A DNA stretch of 28,154 nucleotides from a virus. Location of the stretch: IMG/VR virus record IMGVR_UViG_3300031654_000019, positions 1 to 28,154 of that record; one strand, 5' to 3'. The notes beneath the pieces were generated by a model. It was given only the letters and a program-made list of their open reading frames with translations, had not been told where the DNA came from and searched no databases. Both the position numbers and the translations under genes were made by a program. Of the stretch, positions 430 through 28,107 are shown piece after piece (position 1 is the first letter of the stretch; the number at the start of each line of letters is the position of its first letter).

Positions 430-2472
430 ATGGCTGAAATAACATACCCAGCAACTATAAAGACAGACTTTGAAAAGTTGAAGTGCGTCTATTCTCTGGT
501 TGAGCAGATGCGCCTTGAGCATAACAGCGTGGCAGAGGATTTTAGGGGCAGACTTGTATTAGAATCTGCACCTACGAATCCTGAAGAATACAAGAAAAAA
601 CAAGAACAAGGCTTTATTCCTACTTGGGTTCCCGAAGGCTTCATGGTTTCTGATACTCTCAACAATATTGTTTTGAAGGGCAAATTCAAAACCTACGCCC
701 AGATTTCCAAAGATAAGCTGAAGAAACTACTAGCTGAGCAGAACGAATTAAAGGAGAATATCAGGTGGGCTAAATATACTCCTGTGGAGTGGAAAGCCGT
801 AGGGCATCTTCCTGAGCAGACACAGGATGCGGTATATCATGCTCTATTCGGTGATAAAGAAGTAGAAAAGGTAAAGCCAACAAAAGCTACCTCACCCTTG
901 TTGGATGAACTTAAAGCACTTGACCTTGATAGCCTACCAGAAACTCTTGGTATTGACCCAGTGGAAGACTTCACTTCAGCAAGTTGGAAATACGGTGTGC
1001 CTCAATCTGACCCTGACTCTGAACTTACAGTTATAGCAAGCAAAGTGACCGTTACCACAATGGCAAGGTCGGAGGATGCCTTTTTCTATTCGGATAAAGA
1101 TTCAGGACACTTTAATGGCAATTTTGAGCACTTATTGGAAGGTTTTGTAGATTCAGGGAGTTCCAACTCTGCTGGAGTGATTATCTGGGCATTATCTGAT
1201 TCCACAGATTCATACCTAGACATAGTGGGTGCTAGTGGAGATTTAATCGGTCTCCAGATTGGAGCTGGAGGCGGGGATTTAAGCGGAAAATGTGTTACCT
1301 ATCTTAGAGAAGTTGATGGCGGAACTGAATACTATGATTTTAGTGCATTACCTCTTGAGGACGTTCTTCATTTCTTTGAAGTGGAACGGGATGAGGATAT
1401 TGCTGCTTATGGCACAGCTTATGTTTATATCTGTACTGGTGAACATTGGGACGATGGTGGTACTCAAATTGACACACTAACTTTAGCCCTTCATACATCA
1501 AAAAAGGACTTCCAGAATATTTACTCAATAATGGGTAAGACTAGCCCAACTGGTTTAGATTACGTTACTTGCTACATGCAGAACCTTGACTTGCAGGAGG
1601 GGGGAGCTGAAACCCAGACGATAAGCTCGGCGGGCAATATAGCATCGGCGGAGGCATTCGGTACACTGCAGGTGAATCTTAAAGCCGAGCCATCAGGGAT
1701 TGAATCAGGCGAGGCACTGGGGAGCCCGCAGGCGAATCTTAGAGCCGAACCATCGGGGATAGCTTCAGCGGAGGCACTGGGGAGCCCGCAGGCGAATCTC
1801 AATTTATCGGTAGTCGCCATAGCCTCCGGGGAAGCCTTCGGGACGACAGCCCTGAAAATCTACCTGTTGCCGTCAGCTATAGAAAGCGGGGAGGCTTTCG
1901 GCACGGCGAAAATCGGGGACGTACTGGGGCCAACGGGCATCGAGTCCGGGGAGGCCTTCGGGGATGTCGACATAGATTTCGAGCTCCTGATGACGGGGAT
2001 AGAATCGGCGGAGGCCTTCGGCACGTCTGCCCTGAAAATATATATCATTTCCGCTGGCATCGCCAGTGGGGAGGCGTTCGGCACGGCATTGCTCGGCAGC
2101 ATATTATCGCTCGCGGGCATCGTCTCAGAGGAGGCCTTCGGGGATATCGATATCCAGTTCCGCCTCCTGATGACCGGAATAGAGTCGGAGGAGGCCTTTG
2201 GCGATACCATAGTTTCGACTGGGGGCCAGACATTACTGCCGGAGGGCATTAGCAGCAGCGAGGCACTGGGGAGCCCGGCACTCGAATTGACAATCACGCC
2301 TTCAGGCATAGCATCGGCCGAGGCTTTCGGGAGCGTATTTCTACAGCTAATCAGGGGGATAACGACAGCACTTAAACTGCCCGGGCGTTCCGTAACCTTG
2401 AGTCTGCCGGGGCGGAGCAAGACAATCAAAATACCCGGGCGCAGCACCAATGTAAAAACATACACGGAATAA
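430..2472 (+). CDS. Fibre-like virion protein with twelve GI-S-EA-x-G motifs
   Basis: A 680-residue protein with four visible parts. Residues 1-165 are charged and helical. Residues ~185-400 are rich in short beta strands and aromatic/Gly residues and look like a lectin-type sandwich; no family is assigned. Residues 403-635 hold twelve copies of the motif [GAN]I-x-S-x-E-A-[FL]-G, one every ~20 residues, each followed by hydrophobic strands. Residues ~645-672 hold three LPGRS/IPGRS copies. Repeats of this kind occur in phage structural proteins (established), usually with unknown role. The gene lies between the capsid side and the head-tail connectors, so a head fibre or decoration protein is as likely as a tail fibre. 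The first ~1.2 kb is visibly more AT-rich than the repeat part, which suggests a mosaic origin. The ribosome site is weak (AAGAAG upstream of ATG 430). Confidence 0.7.
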   Translation: MAEITYPATIKTDFEKLKCVYSLVEQMRLEHNSVAEDFRGRLVLESAPTNPEEYKKKQEQGFIPTWVPEGFMVSDTLNNIVLKGKFKTYAQISKDKLKKLLAEQNELKENIRWAKYTPVEWKAVGHLPEQTQDAVYHALFGDKEVEKVKPTKATSPLLDELKALDLDSLPETLGIDPVEDFTSASWKYGVPQSDPDSELTVIASKVTVTTMARSEDAFFYSDKDSGHFNGNFEHLLEGFVDSGSSNSAGVIIWALSDSTDSYLDIVGASGDLIGLQIGAGGGDLSGKCVTYLREVDGGTEYYDFSALPLEDVLHFFEVERDEDIAAYGTAYVYICTGEHWDDGGTQIDTLTLALHTSKKDFQNIYSIMGKTSPTGLDYVTCYMQNLDLQEGGAETQTISSAGNIASAEAFGTLQVNLKAEPSGIESGEALGSPQANLRAEPSGIASAEALGSPQANLNLSVVAIASGEAFGTTALKIYLLPSAIESGEAFGTAKIGDVLGPTGIESGEAFGDVDIDFELLMTGIESAEAFGTSALKIYIISAGIASGEAFGTALLGSILSLAGIVSEEAFGDIDIQFRLLMTGIESEEAFGDTIVSTGGQTLLPEGISSSEALGSPALELTITPSGIASAEAFGSVFLQLIRGITTALKLPGRSVTLSLPGRSKTIKIPGRSTNVKTYTE

Positions 2473-2492
2473 TTATCAATCGGAGGTGAAAT

Positions 2493-2903
2493 ATGGCCAA
2501 TGCTTTATACGCGAAAGGGAGGGAGCACTTCCTCGACGGCAGCCTGGACTGGGACACGCAGGATATCAGGTTCGTGTTCACTGACCATGACGACGATACG
2601 CCGGTGCCGGCTACCGATAACGACCTTGATGATATCGATGATGCCAGCGCCACGGTAGCCACCAGCGATGCATTGAGCTCGAAGACAGTGACCGACGGCG
2701 TGGCCGATGCCGCCGATGAGACGGTCTCGACGGTGAGCGGCGACCAGTTCGAGAGCATCAACCTTTACTACCATACCGGCACGGCGTCGACATCCCTGCT
2801 CATCGCCTATCTCGACACGGTGACGGGTCTGCCCTGCACGCCCAATGGCGGGGATATTACCGTGCAGTGGGACTCCGGGGCGAACAAGATTTTCAAGTTA
2901 TAG
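2493..2903 (+). CDS. Phage structural protein, conserved type of unknown role (136 aa)
   Basis: The start at 2493 follows a clear GGAGGTG site. The protein begins MANALYAKGREHFLDG and ends with a strand-rich part containing LIAYLDTVTGLPCTPNGGD and VQWDSGANKIFKL. I recognise this beginning and ending as typical of a small beta-rich phage protein found near capsid and tail genes (recall of the family, no search). It is acidic, with many Asp in residues 30-60, and lacks membrane segments. Its position in the fibre cassette suggests a virion decoration or spike role. The exact function is unknown. Confidence 0.65.
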   Translation: MANALYAKGREHFLDGSLDWDTQDIRFVFTDHDDDTPVPATDNDLDDIDDASATVATSDALSSKTVTDGVADAADETVSTVSGDQFESINLYYHTGTASTSLLIAYLDTVTGLPCTPNGGDITVQWDSGANKIFKL

Positions 2904-2910
2904 GAGAGGT

Positions 2911-3297
2911 ATGGTCGAGATATTAAAGTCGAAAATATCTAAGATGACCGTTAGCCGGGATGGGCTTGACGTGGTAATCGTGAAAAATGGGCAGAGAATA
3001 TGCGAGCTTCCCTGGGACGCCGCCCTGATGCTGGCCGATGCCATCAAGGTACAGGCCCGCCGCATCGAGGAGTGGGTGAAGGCGGACCAGGTAGTCAATG
3101 ACCAGGCCTTCGTCATGCGGAAGGGGTTGCCCTTCGGTCTGACGAGCAACCCGATGATAATCAGCGAGGCCAAGAAGGAAGCGGCGCATAATCCGCAATT
3201 GAGAAGATATATTCCCCATGTTCCCACGGGCATCAGGAGCCGGGAGGCTCTGGGGACGCCCAGATTGATAAAGCATAGGAGGTCGAAACATGAATAA
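2911..3297 (+). CDS. Unknown virion-cassette protein ending in a GI-S-EA-x-G motif (128 aa)
   Basis: The start is taken at ATG 2911 because TAGGAGAGG directly precedes it and the upstream gene stops at 2903; an in-frame ATG at 2845 would run through that gene. The first half looks like a small mixed alpha/beta unit (VEILKSKISKMTVSRDG, then GQRICELPWDAALMLADAIK). Residues 107-117 are GIRSREALGTP, a single copy of the motif repeated twelve times in the protein encoded at 430-2472. The C-terminus is basic. The shared motif suggests physical association with that fibre-like protein, which is an inference. Confidence 0.6.
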   Translation: MVEILKSKISKMTVSRDGLDVVIVKNGQRICELPWDAALMLADAIKVQARRIEEWVKADQVVNDQAFVMRKGLPFGLTSNPMIISEAKKEAAHNPQLRRYIPHVPTGIRSREALGTPRLIKHRRSKHE

Positions 3298-3550
3298 ATA
3301 TGAAGATATGACCATCGAGCAGCTGGAGGAAATAAACAATAAGATGGGGGCCAAGCGGCTGGAGATTAAGGGGGAGCAGAGCAAGGTCGTGGCGGTCCTC
3401 GATGCCAAGAAGACTGAGAAGAAGGCTGCCGAAAAGCTGGCCGCCATGACCGATAACGAAAAGAAGGCACTTGCCCGGGTGATAGAAGCCGAGGGGATAG
3501 AGTCGGCGGAGGCGGTGGGCGAACCCGGGGGATTAGCCGTCGGGGAGTGA
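3290..3550 (+). CDS. Small helical protein ending in the GI-S-EA-x-G motif (86 aa)
   Basis: It overlaps the upstream gene by 8 bases (ATGAATAA at 3290-3297) and has an AGGAGG site inside that gene. Residues 1-66 are highly charged with heptad-like spacing (Lys/Glu/Ala-rich), a likely coiled coil. Residues 69-79 are GIESAEAVGEP, the third occurrence of the shared motif in this cassette. A short tail GGLAVGE follows. It may be a small helical adaptor carrying a docking tag. No family is recognised. Confidence 0.6.
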   Translation: MNKYEDMTIEQLEEINNKMGAKRLEIKGEQSKVVAVLDAKKTEKKAAEKLAAMTDNEKKALARVIEAEGIESAEAVGEPGGLAVGE

Positions 3551-7080: not shown

Positions 7081-7418
7081 AAATCTGGTCATTCGGGCGC
7101 TATAACCTTAATCTCACCGAAGAGGAATTCTGGGGGCTTACCGTAGCGCAGTTCGGCGCGTTGGCCGAAAGGCATAATAAGCAGCATGCCGACAGGCATG
7201 AACGCGAGGATTACCGGACGGCTCTCATCGTCAGCGAAATCCTCAACACCATCCCCCGCGACCCCAAGAAAGAAATCAAGTTCTTCGGGCCCGCCGATAT
7301 ATTCCCCGGTTATAACTGGAAAAAGCAGAAGGACGCTCACCCGAAAACCGAGGAAGAAAGGCGCGAGCATTATCGCATATTGAATGCCGCCCTGGGCGGC
7401 ACGGAAAAGGAGCTTTAG
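7056..7418 (+). CDS. Tail assembly chaperone frameshift extension (gpGT-like)
   Basis: This is the -1-frame continuation of the chaperone. After slippage on CCCTTTA it reads SQEIPDWLEIWSFGRYNLNL, then TEEEFWGLTVAQFGALAERH. 'EEFW.LT..QF..L' is typical of the T part of lambda-type G/GT proteins. The fused product would be about 232 residues. A TTG at 7161 could in theory start the frame alone, but it has no good ribosome site and would drop the conserved part. It overlaps no other gene and ends just before the tape measure start, with AAGGAG shared as that gene's ribosome site. Confidence 0.75.
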   Translation, partial: SQEIPDWLEIWSFGRYNLNLTEEEFWGLTVAQFGALAERHNKQHADRHEREDYRTALIVSEILNTIPRDPKKEIKFFGPADIFPGYNWKKQKDAHPKTEEERREHYRILNAALGGTEKEL

Positions 7419-7419
7419 C

Positions 7420-9831
7420 ATGGCTCAAGAAATCTCCAAATTATTCGTGACGCTGGGACTTGAGGATAAAGGTTTCAAGTCCCAGCTAAAGCAAATCGAT
7501 AAGCAGATGTCGGCCATGGGTAAGACCATGATGGTGGCCGGGGCGGCTATCCTGGCTGGGATAGGTATGGCCGTCAAGGCCTGGGCGGCCGCCGGGGATG
7601 AGGTTCAAAAGATGAGCCTGCGCACGAATTGGGCCGCCGAATCCCTCAGCGAGCTCCGTTATGTTGCCGAGATTAGCGGTACGGAGCTGGGAGCCTTCGA
7701 GAAAAGCTCCCGCAAGATGACACAATCTATAACACAGGCCAGCGATGGCCTGGCCACATATATCCGTGAGTTCGACCGTCTTGGTCTGAACGCCAAAGAG
7801 CTAAAGGAAATGAAATCTGAGGAGGCCTTCTGGGTCATCGCCGAGGCTCTCGCCGGCATGGAAAATGAGATTGAGATGTCGAACACGGCGCTGGCCATCT
7901 TCGGTCGCAACGGCACGGCGCTCCTGCCCATGCTTGCCGAGGGCGCCGAAGGCATCAGTAAACTGCGCCAGGAAGCCCACGACACGGGCGCCGTCTTTGA
8001 CCAGGAGGCGGCTGAGGCAGCCGCGCATTTTTCCGATACGATAAAGCAGCTTGAATATTCCATAAAGGGAGTTACCTTCGCCATCGCCGAGCAGGCGGCC
8101 CCGACCATCGAGTCATATGCCGCTATCATCACCGATGCCGTGCAGGCGACCAGCAAGTTTGCCGATGAACATACGGAGCTGTCTAATATCCTGGTAACTA
8201 CGGGCATATCTTTTGGGGAAGCATCCCTGGCTGTCGGAGGTCTTATACTTATCCTTCCCAAATTAATATCTCTGGCAACATCTCTCAAGTTATCATTTTG
8301 GAAATTAAGTGCCGCCATTGCCGGTATCACCGTCGGTTTCACATTGATGGCCACCGGTATCAACATGTTGCTGCAGGAGACTCAACGCTATAACGCCCAG
8401 CTCGAGACGGCCAGGATATTATCCGAGGAATACGCCAAAGCGAAACGGGGAGAAACAAATACAGTCTATGAATCTATAGCTGCCCACGCCGATGCCCTCG
8501 AGGTATTAGCCAAAGCCTCTCACATGAACCGGGAAGCCAAGGAGGAGCAGTACGAATATATCCGCTACCTCCGCCAGGTGGTGAAAGACCATCAGGATTA
8601 TGAAAAGGCGGTCGCAGATACGAATGCCCGCCTGGAAGAGCAGAGGGTTATCCTTCAGGCCGATGCCGACAAATTCGTGGGTATGATAAAAAATATCAGG
8701 TATGCCTATTCGGAATCCGCCAAGTTCGGTGTGACCATCGAGGATATCGTGCAATACATGGTTGAGGCCGGGCGCGGTGCCGAGCTTCTGGGCATTAAAT
8801 GGCATGAAATCGGGGAAGATGCCGATCTCCTGGCGCGGAAGCTTAATCTCAGCAGAGCTGAGTTTGAAAAGTTAGCTGGCGGCGATTTACTGGCTCAGGC
8901 CTATCAGACCTATGAAAAAGAGATCCAGGCACTGGATGATATCGCCGATGCCGATAAGCGGGCGATAGATTCGCGGCTGGACTATTACCGGGAGAAAGTC
9001 TACGAACGCACGCGGCTGATTGAAGAGGCCGCCCTGAAAGAGATCGCCGCTGTCAATCCCAGCGTGGCGGCCATCCTCGAGGGTTACAACGAAGAAATGG
9101 AGGGGCTCGATGAGCGAGAGAAAGCCCGCGATATCGCGAGGGAAAATGAGCGTATCGCCAACCTGGAAGCTCAGTTAGAAAAAGAGGAATTATCTGAAGC
9201 TGAGCGCAAGCGTATTGAGCGCGACCTGGAAGAGGCGGAAGACGCGCAGCGGGAGCGAAAAATCCTCGAGCGCCGTAACGCCGAGATAGCCGCCCTTCCC
9301 ATGGAAGAATATCTGGAAGACAAAAAAACTGCCATCGAGCAAAACCTGGAAGATGAAAAGGCATTAAAAGAGACGGCCCTGGAAGAGACTAAAAATAATT
9401 ACAAGGCTGAGCTCGCTGACTTTATCGATATGTGGAATGCCAAGGTAGAGAAAACCAAATATTATACTGACCTGATTAATAAAATAAATAAAGCCTATGT
9501 CGAGCAACGGCAACAGCAATTAGAAATCTATTTGCCAGAATATAAGACTTTTGAACCTCGTGCCTGGTATGAAGCCTTTGGATTTGGTAAAAATTGGAGA
9601 ATTGTTGAAAAATCCAGCACCCCCGAGTTCGCCTCCGGCGGTATCGTGCCTGGCATTCCCGGTCAGCCGGTTCCTGTAATAGCCCACGGTGGGGAAATCA
9701 TCAGCCGGCCCGGCCAGGCCTCCCAGAATATCACCAATCAATTCCATATCGCCCAGCTCGTCGTGCGTGAAGAGGCGGATGTTCAGAAAGTCGCCCGGCA
9801 GCTCTATCGAATGCAGCAGGTGAGGATATAA
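7420..9831 (+). CDS. Tail tape measure protein
   Basis: The start ATG 7420 follows AAGGAG; an upstream in-frame ATG (7384) lies inside the chaperone extension. The product is 803 residues. It has an N-terminal coiled segment (LKQIDKQMSAMGK), a hydrophobic stretch at ~36-58, a second hydrophobic region at ~260-313, and a long charged coiled coil at ~555-665. The end carries 'ASGGIVPGIPGQPVPVIAHGGEIIS', a common feature of tape measure C-termini. The protein sets tail length and leaves the tail at infection; 803 residues imply a tail of roughly 120 nm by the usual ~1.5 angstrom per residue rule (inference). No lytic domain is visible. Confidence 0.9.
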   Translation: MAQEISKLFVTLGLEDKGFKSQLKQIDKQMSAMGKTMMVAGAAILAGIGMAVKAWAAAGDEVQKMSLRTNWAAESLSELRYVAEISGTELGAFEKSSRKMTQSITQASDGLATYIREFDRLGLNAKELKEMKSEEAFWVIAEALAGMENEIEMSNTALAIFGRNGTALLPMLAEGAEGISKLRQEAHDTGAVFDQEAAEAAAHFSDTIKQLEYSIKGVTFAIAEQAAPTIESYAAIITDAVQATSKFADEHTELSNILVTTGISFGEASLAVGGLILILPKLISLATSLKLSFWKLSAAIAGITVGFTLMATGINMLLQETQRYNAQLETARILSEEYAKAKRGETNTVYESIAAHADALEVLAKASHMNREAKEEQYEYIRYLRQVVKDHQDYEKAVADTNARLEEQRVILQADADKFVGMIKNIRYAYSESAKFGVTIEDIVQYMVEAGRGAELLGIKWHEIGEDADLLARKLNLSRAEFEKLAGGDLLAQAYQTYEKEIQALDDIADADKRAIDSRLDYYREKVYERTRLIEEAALKEIAAVNPSVAAILEGYNEEMEGLDEREKARDIARENERIANLEAQLEKEELSEAERKRIERDLEEAEDAQRERKILERRNAEIAALPMEEYLEDKKTAIEQNLEDEKALKETALEETKNNYKAELADFIDMWNAKVEKTKYYTDLINKINKAYVEQRQQQLEIYLPEYKTFEPRAWYEAFGFGKNWRIVEKSSTPEFASGGIVPGIPGQPVPVIAHGGEIISRPGQASQNITNQFHIAQLVVREEADVQKVARQLYRMQQVRI

Positions 9832-14581: not shown

Positions 14582-15545
14582 TTCAGCCCCATCCTTCCCA
14601 CCGGGCTGAAATCCTTGTGTCTGCTGACGGCATACTGGCTATCGATGGTGGCCGTATAGTGCTGGGTCATCCTCGATGTGCTATGCCCGAGCAGGAGCTG
14701 GACCTCCCGCTCGCTGGCGCCATTCATCATCGCCATGGTTCCGGAGGTATGCCGGAAAGTATGAGCCGAAAGCCGCACATCAGAAAAACCCGCCCGCCTC
14801 TTCAGCGCCTTGAAAATCTGGCTGATGCCGCTTAAGGTTATCGGCCGGCCTTCCTCGGTAAGCCAGAGCTGTTCATCACTCCCCGGGCGCTCTGCTGATA
14901 GTAGGCTATTATGGCTTTCAGAGTTGACTTACTGATTCCTACAACCCGTTCCCTGGCCCCCTTACCCATGACGATGATGATACCCCTCTGGACATCAATG
15001 TCGTTGACCTGGATGCGTGTCAGCTCGGAGAGGCGGATTCCGGTATCGAGCAGGGTCAGTACCATGGCTTTATTCCTGACGCCGGTGTGGGTGCCGTCCT
15101 CGCATAGAAGCAGAATCTTCCTGAGGTGCTCCTCGTTGAATATCTTGATTACTTTGACGGGCACCCTGGGTGATTTTATCCGGGCCATGGGGTTGACGGA
15201 TAGACGGTCCTCTTCGAAGAGCCAGGAGAAGAACCGCCGCACTACTTTATAGTATCCATTGACGGACTTGGGGCCATGGGACATTTGCATAGAGGCAATG
15301 AAACCACGAATATGGTCGGTGGTGACATCGGTTACCCGGGTGATATCCGCCTCAAGGCAATAGTTCACGAAGGCTCGAAGCTTGAAGCTGTAGTCATTTA
15401 CCGTGGCCGGAGAGAGCTCTATCCGGGCATTGAGGATAAAACTGTTGTACTGTCCTGTCAGACTATCGATATCGGTAGTCAAACGGTGTAAACCGCTTCG
15501 TGGCGCATCGTAACGAAGCGGCGTAGTCAAATGGTATAAACTCAT
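14578..15545 (-). pseudogene. int: Tyrosine integrase, interrupted by a one-base frameshift
   Basis: The first part (15545 to 14838) has an N-terminal SAM-like domain ('SPATVNDYSFKLRAFVNYC', 'DHIRGFIASMQM', 'YYKVVRRFFSWLFEEDRLSVNPM'). It then shows the catalytic Arg (DTGIRLSEL) and the Lys hairpin (VMGKGARERVV). It ends early at 14838. The rest of the catalytic domain is in the -1 frame: 'LWLTEEGRPITLSGISQIF', then SAHTFRHTSGT (H-x-x-R), LLGHSTSRMTQHY (final His and Tyr). The break is at a run of four G (complement of 14881-14884); one more G would restore the frame. All catalytic residues are present when the two parts are joined. It may be a sequencing error, true decay, or recoding. The start is uncertain. 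Confidence 0.85.
15475..15541 (+). repeat. Direct and inverted repeats at the integrase 5' end
   Basis: A 19-base direct repeat with two differences, GTAGTCAAAYGGTRTAAAC, occurs at 15475-15493 and 15523-15541. Between the copies lies a 9-bp perfect inverted repeat, CCGCTTCGT (15493-15501) and ACGAAGCGG (15513-15521). They overlap the presumed first codons of the integrase and lie next to the attP-like sequence. Integrase arm sites or an operator are possible. Confidence 0.6.
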
Positions 15546-15955: not shown

Positions 15956-16300
15956 TTACGCCTCGTATTTCTGCCTCTCGTTCTTGCGCTCGCGCACCAT
16001 CTGGATAGTACGCCTCAGCCAGTCCTTCTCTTCATCATCCAGCTCTGGCAGGTCATTGATTAAGAAGGCCTTGATATCATGGTCTTCCACAGTCAGTATA
16101 TCGATTAAAACAGAAGGTGGCATCCCTAATCCTTTCGCAAGTTTCTCTGCTGTATTAAGAGTGATAGAGCAATTCTTCTTCGCTTCCAATTGACTTATAT
16201 AACCCCTATCTATCCCAATAAGTTTCCCCAATTTCCTTTGGCTCAAACCTGCTTTTTCTCTCAATTCTTTAATTAATTTGCCGACAGGCACTTCTCCCAT
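15956..16300 (-). CDS. cI-like repressor with HTH_3 domain (114 aa)
   Basis: The start ATG at 16300 is chosen because GGTGGAG lies 10 bases upstream; a longer in-frame start at 16378 would run through the promoter region. Residues ~6-65 are a classic XRE/HTH_3 domain: 'IKELREKAGLSQRKLGKLIGIDRGYISQLEA' with 'TLNTAEKLAKGLGM'. The C-terminal ~45 residues are acidic/helical ('NDLPELDDEEKDWLRRTIQMV'), probably for dimer formation; there is no LexA-type peptidase. It is divergent from the early promoter and probably controls it and itself through the TGAGGAT sites. Confidence 0.85.
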   Translation of the reverse strand: MGEVPVGKLIKELREKAGLSQRKLGKLIGIDRGYISQLEAKKNCSITLNTAEKLAKGLGMPPSVLIDILTVEDHDIKAFLINDLPELDDEEKDWLRRTIQMVRERKNERQKYEA

Positions 16301-16343
16301 AGATAATATTCTCCACCCCCTGAGGATATTTTTCAAGATGAGG

Positions 16344-16371
16344 ATAAAAATAACATAAAAACTATTGACAA
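16344..16371 (-). promoter_or_regulatory. Leftward promoter of the repressor gene
   Basis: On the minus strand TTGTCA (16371-16366), 16 bases, TTTTAT (16349-16344). Its -35 box covers the same bases as the -35 of the rightward promoter, so the two compete. A TGAGGAT copy overlaps the -10, which suggests self-control of the repressor. Confidence 0.5.
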
Positions 16372-16392
16372 ATTCCATAATAGGAGTATAAT
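16365..16392 (+). promoter_or_regulatory. Early rightward promoter (sigma-70 type)
   Basis: TTGACA (16365-16370), 16 bases, TATAAT (16387-16392): a perfect match to both hexamers. Transcription would start near 16400, just before the third TGAGGAT-type site, and lead into the small early genes from 16484. It is the strongest promoter visible in the window. Confidence 0.85.
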
Positions 16393-16437
16393 AGACTCAT
16401 ATGTAGATTAATCCTCATAGGAGAAACATAATACCAA

Positions 16438-16490
16438 GCCAACCCTGAAAGAGGGCAGGGAAAACACTCAAAAAGGGAGATAGATGGCAA
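16438..16490 (+). repeat. 53-bp leader repeat, copy 1
   Basis: The 53 bases leading into the gene at 16484 (from GCCAACCCTGAAAG to the first codons) recur at 16963-17015 with one mismatch. The unit contains a small CCCT-GAAAG-AGGG hairpin, an A-rich stretch, GGGAG and the start ATGGCAA. Confidence 0.9.
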
Positions 16491-16699
16491 AGGAAGAATA
16501 CGTAGAAGTCAAATTTAAGAACGTTAGACAGGTAGGAAGAGTGGGTAAGAAACTTATCAAGAGCGTCAACGCCCTTTATGATGCCGGTCTTATCAACATC
16601 GAAGAATATAAAAGCATCATCAGTAAAATCGGCACTTATCTCCCCGAAAAAGTAATGAAATTTAAAACGAAATTAAAAACTCGGAAGGTCAAGGCTTGA
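16484..16699 (+). CDS. Small basic early protein, unknown (71 aa)
   Basis: This is the first gene after the early promoter. ATG 16484 follows GGGAG inside the duplicated leader. The product is Lys/Val-rich ('EYVEVKFKNVRQVGRVGKKLIKSVNALYDAGLINIEEYKSIISKIG') with a predicted helical centre and a basic tail (KFKTKLKTRKVKA). No family is recognised. Its position suits an early regulator such as a Cro-like or anti-repressor protein, although no HTH pattern is obvious. Its last 11 bases overlap the end of the convergent gene at 16689. Confidence 0.6.
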   Translation: MAKEEYVEVKFKNVRQVGRVGKKLIKSVNALYDAGLINIEEYKSIISKIGTYLPEKVMKFKTKLKTRKVKA

Positions 16700-16889
16700 G
16701 GTTGCGTTTGATGGCACGTTCTATATCATTTATTTTCCTCTCCAAATCCTTTTTAAAATCGGGAGATTTTATGGTGATATGGCAATACGGACACTTACCC
16801 TCATTAGCCATCATCTGCCGGACGTTCAATGAGAATTTCCGTTTACAATTCGGGCATGTGAAATCAACCTTGGCATCTTTATTCAACAT
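16689..16889 (-). CDS. Zinc-ribbon protein, convergent with the early gene (66 aa)
   Basis: On the minus strand AGGAGG-ATGAT-ATG gives an excellent start at 16889. CPNC (residues 12-15) and CPYC (~33-36) form one zinc ribbon; a charged helix follows ('FKKDLERKINDIERAIKRN'). A minus-strand promoter lies upstream (16913-16941). The gene runs against the early operon and ends within the last codons of the plus gene, so the two transcripts are complementary at their ends. It could be a lysogenic or regulatory gene. Confidence 0.7.
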   Translation of the reverse strand: MLNKDAKVDFTCPNCKRKFSLNVRQMMANEGKCPYCHITIKSPDFKKDLERKINDIERAIKRNLKP

Positions 16890-16912
16890 ATCATCCTCCT
16901 TTACATGTCACC

Positions 16913-16941
16913 AGTTTAGTCATGAAGAAATATAAAGTCAA
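16913..16941 (-). promoter_or_regulatory. Minus-strand promoter for the zinc-ribbon gene
   Basis: On the minus strand TTGACT (16941-16936), 17 bases, TAAACT (16918-16913), followed within ~20 bases by the AGGAGG site of the gene starting at 16889. Five of six -35 and four of six -10 bases match. Confidence 0.5.
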
Positions 16942-16962
16942 GGAATCATAGATAAGATGTAC

Positions 16963-17015
16963 GCCAACCCTGAAAGAGGGCAAGGAAAACACTCAAAAAG
17001 GGAGATAGATGGCAA
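16963..17015 (+). repeat. 53-bp leader repeat, copy 2
   Basis: A copy of 16438-16490 with one substitution (G to A at 16983). It supplies the ribosome site and first codons of the gene at 17009. The duplicated unit is upstream of two different proteins, so it is a duplicated regulatory leader rather than a gene duplication. Confidence 0.9.
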
Positions 17016-25093: not shown

Positions 25094-25825
25094 ATGAAGA
25101 ATTTAATACTCAGCATTTTCCCTGGTATCGGCATTCTGGATAAAGGCTTTGAGGAAGAGGGGTACTGCGTAGTGCGAGGACCTGACAAGCTCTGGGGCGG
25201 CGATATCAAGAACTTCCACCCACCTTCTGGAGTATTCGAGGGGGTAATCGGTGGGCCTCCCTGCCAAGAGTTTAGTGAGCTTCGACATGTACACAAGAAT
25301 AAAAAAATGAAATGGGGGAATCTAATACCTGAGTTCGAGCGTGTCATTAGCGAGGCGCAACCGGAGTGGTTCGTGATGGAGAATATAAAGATGGCGCCAT
25401 TACCTGTAGTTGCTGGCTACCACGTACAAGGCACGTTGCTTAATAACAGATGGCTCGGTTTCCCACAGAACCGCGTGCATCGCCTATCTTTCGGGACAAA
25501 GAATGGCACCCATCTCACCTATGACATTGCCATCTTCGAATCTCCGGAGTGGGCACCTCGTGTCTTGGCGTGTGGCTATCCAACGAAAATCACCCACGTC
25601 AAAGACAGCCATAATCTTCATCTCAAGGTAGGTCCCACGAATCGGACGGTGCGAGATGGATTACGGTTACAGGGACTGCCAGAGAATTTCTTGGATGATG
25701 CCCCTTTCACAGTCAGAGCAAAGCAATCGGTTATCGGCAATGCTGTAGCCTTCCCTATGGCCAAGGCGTTAGCTAAGGCGGTAAAAAAAGCAATGGAGAT
25801 TCCCTTAAATGCTCCGCTACTATGA
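25094..25825 (+). CDS. DNA (cytosine-5) methyltransferase (243 aa)
   Basis: Motif I (SIFPGIGILDKGF, residues 7-19), motif IV (GGPPCQEFS, catalytic Cys57), motif VI (MENIK, Glu96), motif VIII (QNRVHRL) and motif X (VIGNAVAFPMAKALAKAV) are all present in order. At 243 residues it is short, so the target-recognition region is small. No restriction enzyme partner lies nearby, so it is likely an orphan methyltransferase that protects viral DNA from host cleavage or alters regulation. No strong ribosome site is visible before ATG 25094. Confidence 0.9.
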   Translation: MKNLILSIFPGIGILDKGFEEEGYCVVRGPDKLWGGDIKNFHPPSGVFEGVIGGPPCQEFSELRHVHKNKKMKWGNLIPEFERVISEAQPEWFVMENIKMAPLPVVAGYHVQGTLLNNRWLGFPQNRVHRLSFGTKNGTHLTYDIAIFESPEWAPRVLACGYPTKITHVKDSHNLHLKVGPTNRTVRDGLRLQGLPENFLDDAPFTVRAKQSVIGNAVAFPMAKALAKAVKKAMEIPLNAPLL

Positions 25826-26925: not shown

Positions 26926-27295
26926 ACCACAGCGACCCTGCCGATATCCCGGCTGCCCGAATCTCACCGCCGACAAAAGCGGCTACTGCCCGGCCCATCT
27001 CGAGCAGACCCGCCGGCAGTACGACCATGAGCGGGGCACCAGCACACAGCGCGGCTATAACTACCGATGGCAGCGAGCCAGCAAGCTCTACCTCGCCGAG
27101 CATCCGCTCTGTGAAATCTGCTTGAAGAAGAACCCGCCGATCACCAAGGCGGCCACCCTCGTTGACCATATCGAGCCGCACCGCGGGGATTACGACCTCT
27201 TCTGGGATGAACGCAACTGGCAGTCCTCCTGCAAGGATTGTCACGACATCAAGACGGCTAAAGAGGACGGGGCATTCGGGAATCCGAGAACATGA
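26915..27295 (+). CDS. HNH endonuclease of the packaging region (126 aa)
   Basis: ATG 26915 follows AAGAGGA; longer in-frame starts lack sense upstream. The N-terminus has 'RPCRYPGCPNLTADKSGYCPAHL', a zinc ribbon, then 'R.YDHERGTSTQRGYNYRWQRASKLYLAEHPLCEICLKKNPPI'. The HNH core follows: 'ATLVDHIEPHRGDYDLFWDERNWQSSCKDCHDIKTAKED'. This is the HNH type that lies next to the terminase small subunit in HK97-like cos phages and assists terminase cutting (established for HK97 gp74). It is coupled to the next gene by ATGA. Confidence 0.9.
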   Translation: MSLKPQRPCRYPGCPNLTADKSGYCPAHLEQTRRQYDHERGTSTQRGYNYRWQRASKLYLAEHPLCEICLKKNPPITKAATLVDHIEPHRGDYDLFWDERNWQSSCKDCHDIKTAKEDGAFGNPRT

Positions 27296-28107
27296 GCAAA
27301 TATTGCCTGAGATGCGGCGTACCGACGAAAAGCAATCGAAATGACTATTGCGGCTATTCTTGCTCGAACGCCGACAAGAACGAAAAACGCAATCAGAGAT
27401 TCGAAGACCTGCCGGCCAGCATCGTCTGGTCATGCGGCGGCGGTATCCAGAGCACAGCGATAGCGGCATTGATATTAACTGGTGAGCTCCCCAAGCCGGA
27501 CTATTCGGTCATCGTCGATACGGGATACGAGCGCAGGAGCACATGGGACTATGTTTATAGCACGCTCATCCCCCGGCTCAGGGATATCGATGTCGAACTG
27601 CAAATCATCAAGACCATCGACTATGCGGATAACGCGCTTTTCTACAACGGATGTCTCCTGATACCAGCCTACGAGAAACGTACAGATGGCAGCACTGTCA
27701 GATACAGGACGATGTGCAATGGTGTCTGGAAGACGAAAGTAATCCGGCGCTGGCTCAGAGAACAAGGTGTCGAGAAGTGCATCACATGGCTCGGGATATC
27801 TCAAGATGAAGAACGCCGAAGACAAAAAGATGCAGTGAAGTGGAACCGGAGCGTCTACCCATTGCTGGAAAAGAAATTAAATAAAGACCGATGCATATAC
27901 CTCATCGCCAAAGCGGGGCTCCCGATGCCGCCACGGACATCCTGCTTAATCTGTCCTGGTATGGCGACCGAAGAGTGGCAAGACATTAAAGAAAATTATA
28001 AAGCGGACTGGGGACGTGCGGTGGGGATTGAAAAGCAAATCCAAAAGGTAAAGCCTGATACTTATCTGCATTATTCACTCCATCCGCTTGAGCAAGCTAT
28101 AAATTAA
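27292..28107 (+). CDS. PAPS-reductase-like ATP pyrophosphatase with N-terminal zinc motif
   Basis: ATGA overlap with the HNH gene. The 271-residue product has an N-terminal zinc motif (CLRC, then CGYSC at 20-24), then 'VWSCGGGIQSTAIAALILTGELPKPDYSVIVDTGYERRSTWDYV', the SGG-x-S PP-loop of adenine-nucleotide alpha hydrolases. 'TWLGISQDEERRRQ' and 'RTSCLICPGMATEEWQDI' lie near the end, with the CxxC typical of this phage group. Family members activate a substrate with ATP for sulfur transfer, reduction or tRNA/DNA modification; which of these is not shown. It is placed between HNH and the expected terminase genes. Confidence 0.8.
   Translation: MSKYCLRCGVPTKSNRNDYCGYSCSNADKNEKRNQRFEDLPASIVWSCGGGIQSTAIAALILTGELPKPDYSVIVDTGYERRSTWDYVYSTLIPRLRDIDVELQIIKTIDYADNALFYNGCLLIPAYEKRTDGSTVRYRTMCNGVWKTKVIRRWLREQGVEKCITWLGISQDEERRRQKDAVKWNRSVYPLLEKKLNKDRCIYLIAKAGLPMPPRTSCLICPGMATEEWQDIKENYKADWGRAVGIEKQIQKVKPDTYLHYSLHPLEQAIN

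Follow-up and report, generated by a model that had tools for sequence, protein, structure and literature searches.

A short motif that occurs in twelve tandem copies in one protein (R) of a virus contig of 28,154 bases, the whole of which was analysed (hereafter 'the window'), recurs once near the C-terminus of each of two neighbouring proteins, P130 and C80. The motif itself, its retention near the C-termini of P130 and C80, the conserved face common to tags and array units, and the constant presence of a wing-arm gene beside the motif carriers are all directly observed. We tentatively propose, on the strength of these sequence comparisons, that the motif is a docking strand with the arm as its most likely partner, R representing a row of sites and P130 and C80 each plugging in once.

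Results

Gene cassette and repeat array

The order of genes in the left part of the window indicates that the motif-bearing genes constitute one cassette located just 5' of the connector genes. Protein R (430-2472, plus strand; 680 residues) comprises an N-terminal part of about 400 residues, the array (1639-2331), and a short LPGRS-type end in which [LI]PGRS occurs three times at intervals of about ten residues (2374-2454), as a second small repeat behind the array. It is followed on the same strand by (i) the arm-family protein (2493-2903; phrog_644, the family of the Bxb1 tail wing arm gp31, PDB 9d93), which has zero copies of the motif, (ii) P130 (2911-3297; 128 residues), which consists of a folded body and a disordered C-terminal tail with the tag GIRSREALGTP (3229-3261), and (iii) C80 (3290-3550; 86 residues), which is rich in Lys and Glu, probably coiled-coil, and carries the tag GIESAEAVGEP (3494-3526) close to its C-terminus. 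The gene after C80 (3552-3866) encodes a protein weakly resembling BppU_N, and downstream of it lie the genes for the head-tail connector, head closure, neck, tail terminator and major tail proteins; a long gene at the position expected of a tape measure (7384-9831) is then followed by genes for Dit and a prophage-type tail endopeptidase. Further along the window we noted an integrase gene on the minus strand behind the tail genes (14838-15545; PHROG 1, E 1.5e-28), a stretch of low G+C content after it (0.39 at 16001-17000), a C-5 cytosine methylase (25094-25825), and a phosphoadenosine phosphosulfate reductase-like gene (27292-28107; PHROG 424, E 1e-27), which is an auxiliary metabolic gene.

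The earlier note on this DNA had reported twelve motif copies in R at a spacing of about 20 residues, and exactly twelve matches to [IVLF]x[ST]xEx[FLIVYM]G are indeed counted at residues 404-634 (1639-2331), the units following the form IxSxEx[FL]G with nine successive spacings of 20 residues, then one of 23 and a last one of 20. Over the array, R matches phrog_13352 (minor tail protein; E 7e-37, four stretches), and existing annotations already assign such EAFG repeats to minor tail proteins. A phmmer search of R against the PDB returned noise only, the repeat profile matched no PDB chain, and R, P130 and C80 belong to no Pfam family.

Relatives of the N-terminal part of R carry other C-terminal tandem repeats (of the KTALLGLxxTGSRAI, GLKxGDT and ATLSGTGTLA types). 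In the two nearest relative contigs (P130 78-79% identical), both tagged proteins are present and the array protein is located downstream of them, with an N-terminal part that differs from that of R. Hence, the array is a module that is joined to different front ends. At three loci (L007, 5989-8088; L008, 5953-7899; L010, 5989-8949) an R-like N-terminal part precedes other tandem repeats of about 20 residues (TALLGL, GLKxGDT and LSGTGTLA types), and a different small protein precedes each of these repeat proteins, in the place of the arm. Possibly, these repeats and small proteins constitute other motif-partner pairs; a single-sequence profile comparison of the small proteins with the arm, which is shallow and says little, gave no match.

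One-copy tags on P130, C80 and other proteins

The only match in P130 is at residue 108 (3232-3255), a distance of 22 residues from the C-terminus when the preceding Gly is counted, and C80 contains one at residue 70 (3497-3520). The single copy in each protein, as first described, is thus confirmed, but it is located about 20 residues before the stop codon and not at the very end. When residues were shuffled, at least one copy arose in 51 of 20000 cases for P130 (∼0.3%) and in 77 of 20000 for C80 (∼0.4%).

Since loci found through the motif are selected for it, P130 was searched for again with the tag cut from the query. The tag is present in 39 of the 42 distinct homologues thus obtained (complete C-termini, all loci), which are 32-79% identical to P130 of the window and some of which are closely related to each other. 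Gly and Pro are kept in 39/39 tags, Ser in 35 and Glu in 26. An EAFG array accompanies P130 in 16/22 records, the remaining six being records of 7 to 26 kb that are probably incomplete; viral records are mostly uncultivated fragments. The motif pair is found in related genomes, with P130 and C80 relatives having a C-terminal copy in many other viral contigs. The model of P130, predicted alone, exhibits a well-folded body (residues 12-100, pLDDT ∼91) and a disordered tail holding the tag (pLDDT 55-63). Neither Pfam nor PHROGs yielded a family with a useful E-value for P130, and its fold matched no entry of the PDB or BFVD with a useful score; as the profile from all nine P130 sequences was too divergent for scanning, two closer subsets were used. 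One P130 homologue (L050, 135-545) has two different consecutive tags, IESQSVVGTPTL and GGIESEEKLGD.

With C80 alone as query no relatives were found, and its relatives were identified as the gene following P130. The strict tag is present in 17 of 39 such records, several further copies are degenerate (e.g., SIASTAAVGEPGG in L037), and about half of the records have the C80 tag. Many tagless C80 proteins terminate at the tag boundary, and the tag is thus a separable end module of C80. It is likewise located at the end of two further, unrelated small proteins, one in L034 (5653-6060; PHROG 1084; GISSQEAIGAPTIIQL) and one in L089 (6707-6925; 73 residues; GIQSGESFGTPSIVMEPPK).

Residue pattern of tags and array units

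Conservation alternates along the 1068 array units collected from 96 loci: Ile, Ser, Glu and Phe are kept, the intervening residues are small and less constrained, and Gly follows. This alternating pattern is characteristic of a strand in which a single face is functional. In the 39 tags the positions conserved in the 1068 array units (I, S, E, F/V, G) are likewise kept, whereas the other strand face bears small residues in arrays and Arg, Lys, Gln or Glu in tags, for which the consensus is [IV][RK]S[QR]Ex[VF]GTP. This common face, together with the occurrence of the tag in 39/42 P130 proteins, its separability in C80 and its presence on the proteins of L034 and L089, supports the original suggestion of a tag for docking or co-assembly.

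Within genomes, tags match their own arrays better than others weakly (p 0.01-0.03), which shared ancestry could explain, and loss of Glu in tags does not reliably track the array. A Glu-for-Glu covariation of tag and array was considered and rejected, with two clean cases (L122 and L132) and a p-value of 0.17 over 26 loci that is not significant.

The arm-family protein

Across the phages, only the wing-arm protein is a constant partner; the earlier note had not named it. The arm profile matches Bxb1 gp31 (chain 9d93_Ra) with an hmmsearch E-value of 9.3e-23; 3 wing bases and 6 arms are modelled in PDB 9d93. Arm homologues from widely differing phages share 44-67% identity with the window protein. 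All 41 EAFG-array contigs that reach 20 kb, records which are not all independent, encode an arm, and an EAFG array is present in each of the 34 arm loci that reach 9.5 kb, a sample that was seeded with arms from array-bearing loci. Among the loci we found no arm columns changing clearly with motif type, and no natural fusion of arm and array. In Pseudomonas phage F116, a large protein (gp51; L224, 7717-10680) displays by eye degenerate repeats of the SSAFGTxxV kind, and its gene is the third downstream of that for the arm homologue gp48.

Discussion

A proposed docking model and its alternatives

We infer that the motif acts by binding, that its binding partner is the arm, and that the virion contains P130 and C80. 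The array of R would then provide a row of twelve similar docking sites, a single copy on a flexible C-terminus would allow the unrelated proteins P130 and C80 to join the same structure, and the arm-family protein (2493-2903) would be the most likely common socket of the motif. With the arm as socket, many arms would sit on R, and P130 and C80 would be joined by way of an arm or held together with one. Linkage in one operon, taken by itself, is also compatible with proteins whose only tie is that they act in a common structure. It is tempting to speculate further that tailed phages of many hosts possess a common plug-and-socket code, in which a one-faced strand motif, present as repeats in fibres and as a C-terminal tag on unrelated small proteins, is read by a conserved wing-arm protein, a generalization that we regard as conceivable yet rather doubtful. 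If it is true, the attachment organ would acquire or shed accessory proteins through gain or loss of about ten residues, and the motif variants SxEAFG and STxxVG would represent distinct keys within a single code.

The chief competing explanation is direct stacking of the tag on array units: the array would be a β-solenoid, and the lone copy in P130 or C80 would supply one further rung at its end, capping or starting it. We consider this unlikely. AlphaFold2 folds the array into a solenoid with every motif as a long strand (mean pLDDT 74.8), and the model superposes on β-helix tailspikes and polygalacturonases with VIA-align Z-scores of 15-17. However, the five models range in pLDDT from 74.8 down to 46.8, with only one reaching 75, Foldseek gave no match for the array model (E 1 or worse), and AlphaFold2 is known to produce confident but unrealistic solenoids for tandem repeats (PMC11795689). 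Hence, the solenoid model constitutes weak evidence, and the β-solenoid rung put forward in the earlier note is not established, even though its more general idea of a tag for docking or co-assembly stands. In addition, stacking would place the conserved Glu in every rung, and by eye the phage Klein encodes a one-copy carrier (a wing base with the copy FIDSTAEVFSPAI) while an array gene beside the arm is absent.

P130 and C80 might instead be assembly helpers that stay outside the virion, their tag mimicking an array unit and binding the arm or a folding site of R in order to block premature assembly. Both are small proteins encoded within the fibre operon, C80 is coiled-coil-like, and the tag is specialised with charged residues, all of which would suit such a role; yet no similarity to known fibre chaperones was detected in Pfam or PHROGs, and the one-copy carrier of Corndog-type phages is the wing base, the Bxb1 homologue of which is part of the virion, so that we rate this explanation as improbable. 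Finally, spreading of the motif as a DNA cassette by recombination, with single copies as incidental insertions, which was also raised at first, is very hard to sustain: units within arrays reach a DNA identity of up to 1.00, which indicates that arrays expand by duplication, but a tag and the nearest array unit of its own genome are only 0.47-0.77 identical, which makes recent copying of a cassette unlikely, and the tags have a consensus of their own and are kept at one place in proteins otherwise ∼40% identical. The single copies thus look old and maintained, as judged from these comparisons.

Provided that the docking model is right, it would yield a straightforward and testable rule by which siphophages fasten accessory proteins to the organs that recognise the host, would name a probable role for a very common unexplained repeat and for a widespread arm protein, and would enable one to mark virion-linked proteins of unknown function from sequence alone by means of a short tag. 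The arm has reportedly been seen in Bxb1 by cryo-EM. The one-copy C-terminal tag on P130, C80 and the wing base appears to be undescribed, and for the association of array and arm, too, we came across no published account, although the Bxb1 structure paper may state part of both; the motif was not found printed in a phage context in the literature searched.

Comparison with known systems

In scaffolds of the dockerin-cohesin type, one protein provides a row of sites and others carry single matching pieces. The likeness to the window is one in working only: here the tag and the array unit resemble each other and are not complementary.

The mycobacteriophage proteins Kumao gp32, MosMoris gp90 and McProf gp72 (PHROG 13352) likewise possess repeats of 20-23 residues (GIPSAEAFGTP) in 4-7 copies, and the arm-family gene adjoins the array as in the window. 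They differ from the window in having an N-terminal array, and no one-copy neighbours of the P130 or C80 type were found beside them.

In the Bxb1 tail wing (base gp30 and arm gp31 in PDB 9d93; brush gp33), to the arm family of which the 2493-2903 protein belongs, the base with its D-Ala-D-Ala carboxypeptidase is encoded directly upstream of the arm, whereas the window has the array protein R in that place. No β-lactamase/carboxypeptidase domain as in the wing base was detected in the window proteins scanned, and R has no Pfam match. Unlike in the window, no EAFG array was seen in a Bxb1-type wing cassette (EnzoK), and a motif copy is barely recognisable in the Bxb1 wing base. Moreover, the window cassette adjoins the head-tail connector genes, whereas Bxb1-type wing genes come after the tail tip genes.

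The wing cassettes of the Corndog/Brujita type (Firecracker gp60-62, Brujita gp22-24; PHROG 8501) comprise, like the window, an array protein, an arm and a protein with a single C-terminal copy. Five units are discernible by eye in the gene after the arm in Firecracker and Brujita (RIASTAAVGAPTV and RIASSASVGRPTV), and one matching unit closes the wing base that is encoded before the arm (KIGSTSKVGKPGV and RRASTAAVHSPGV). The differences from the window are that the motif lacks Glu (IxSTxxVGxP) and that the one-copy carrier is the wing base enzyme. ScoobyDoobyDoo, again by eye, has three MIxSAEQVYxP-like copies in the gene preceding the arm. Across the phages compared, the carriers change and the motif drifts, while the arm is constant.
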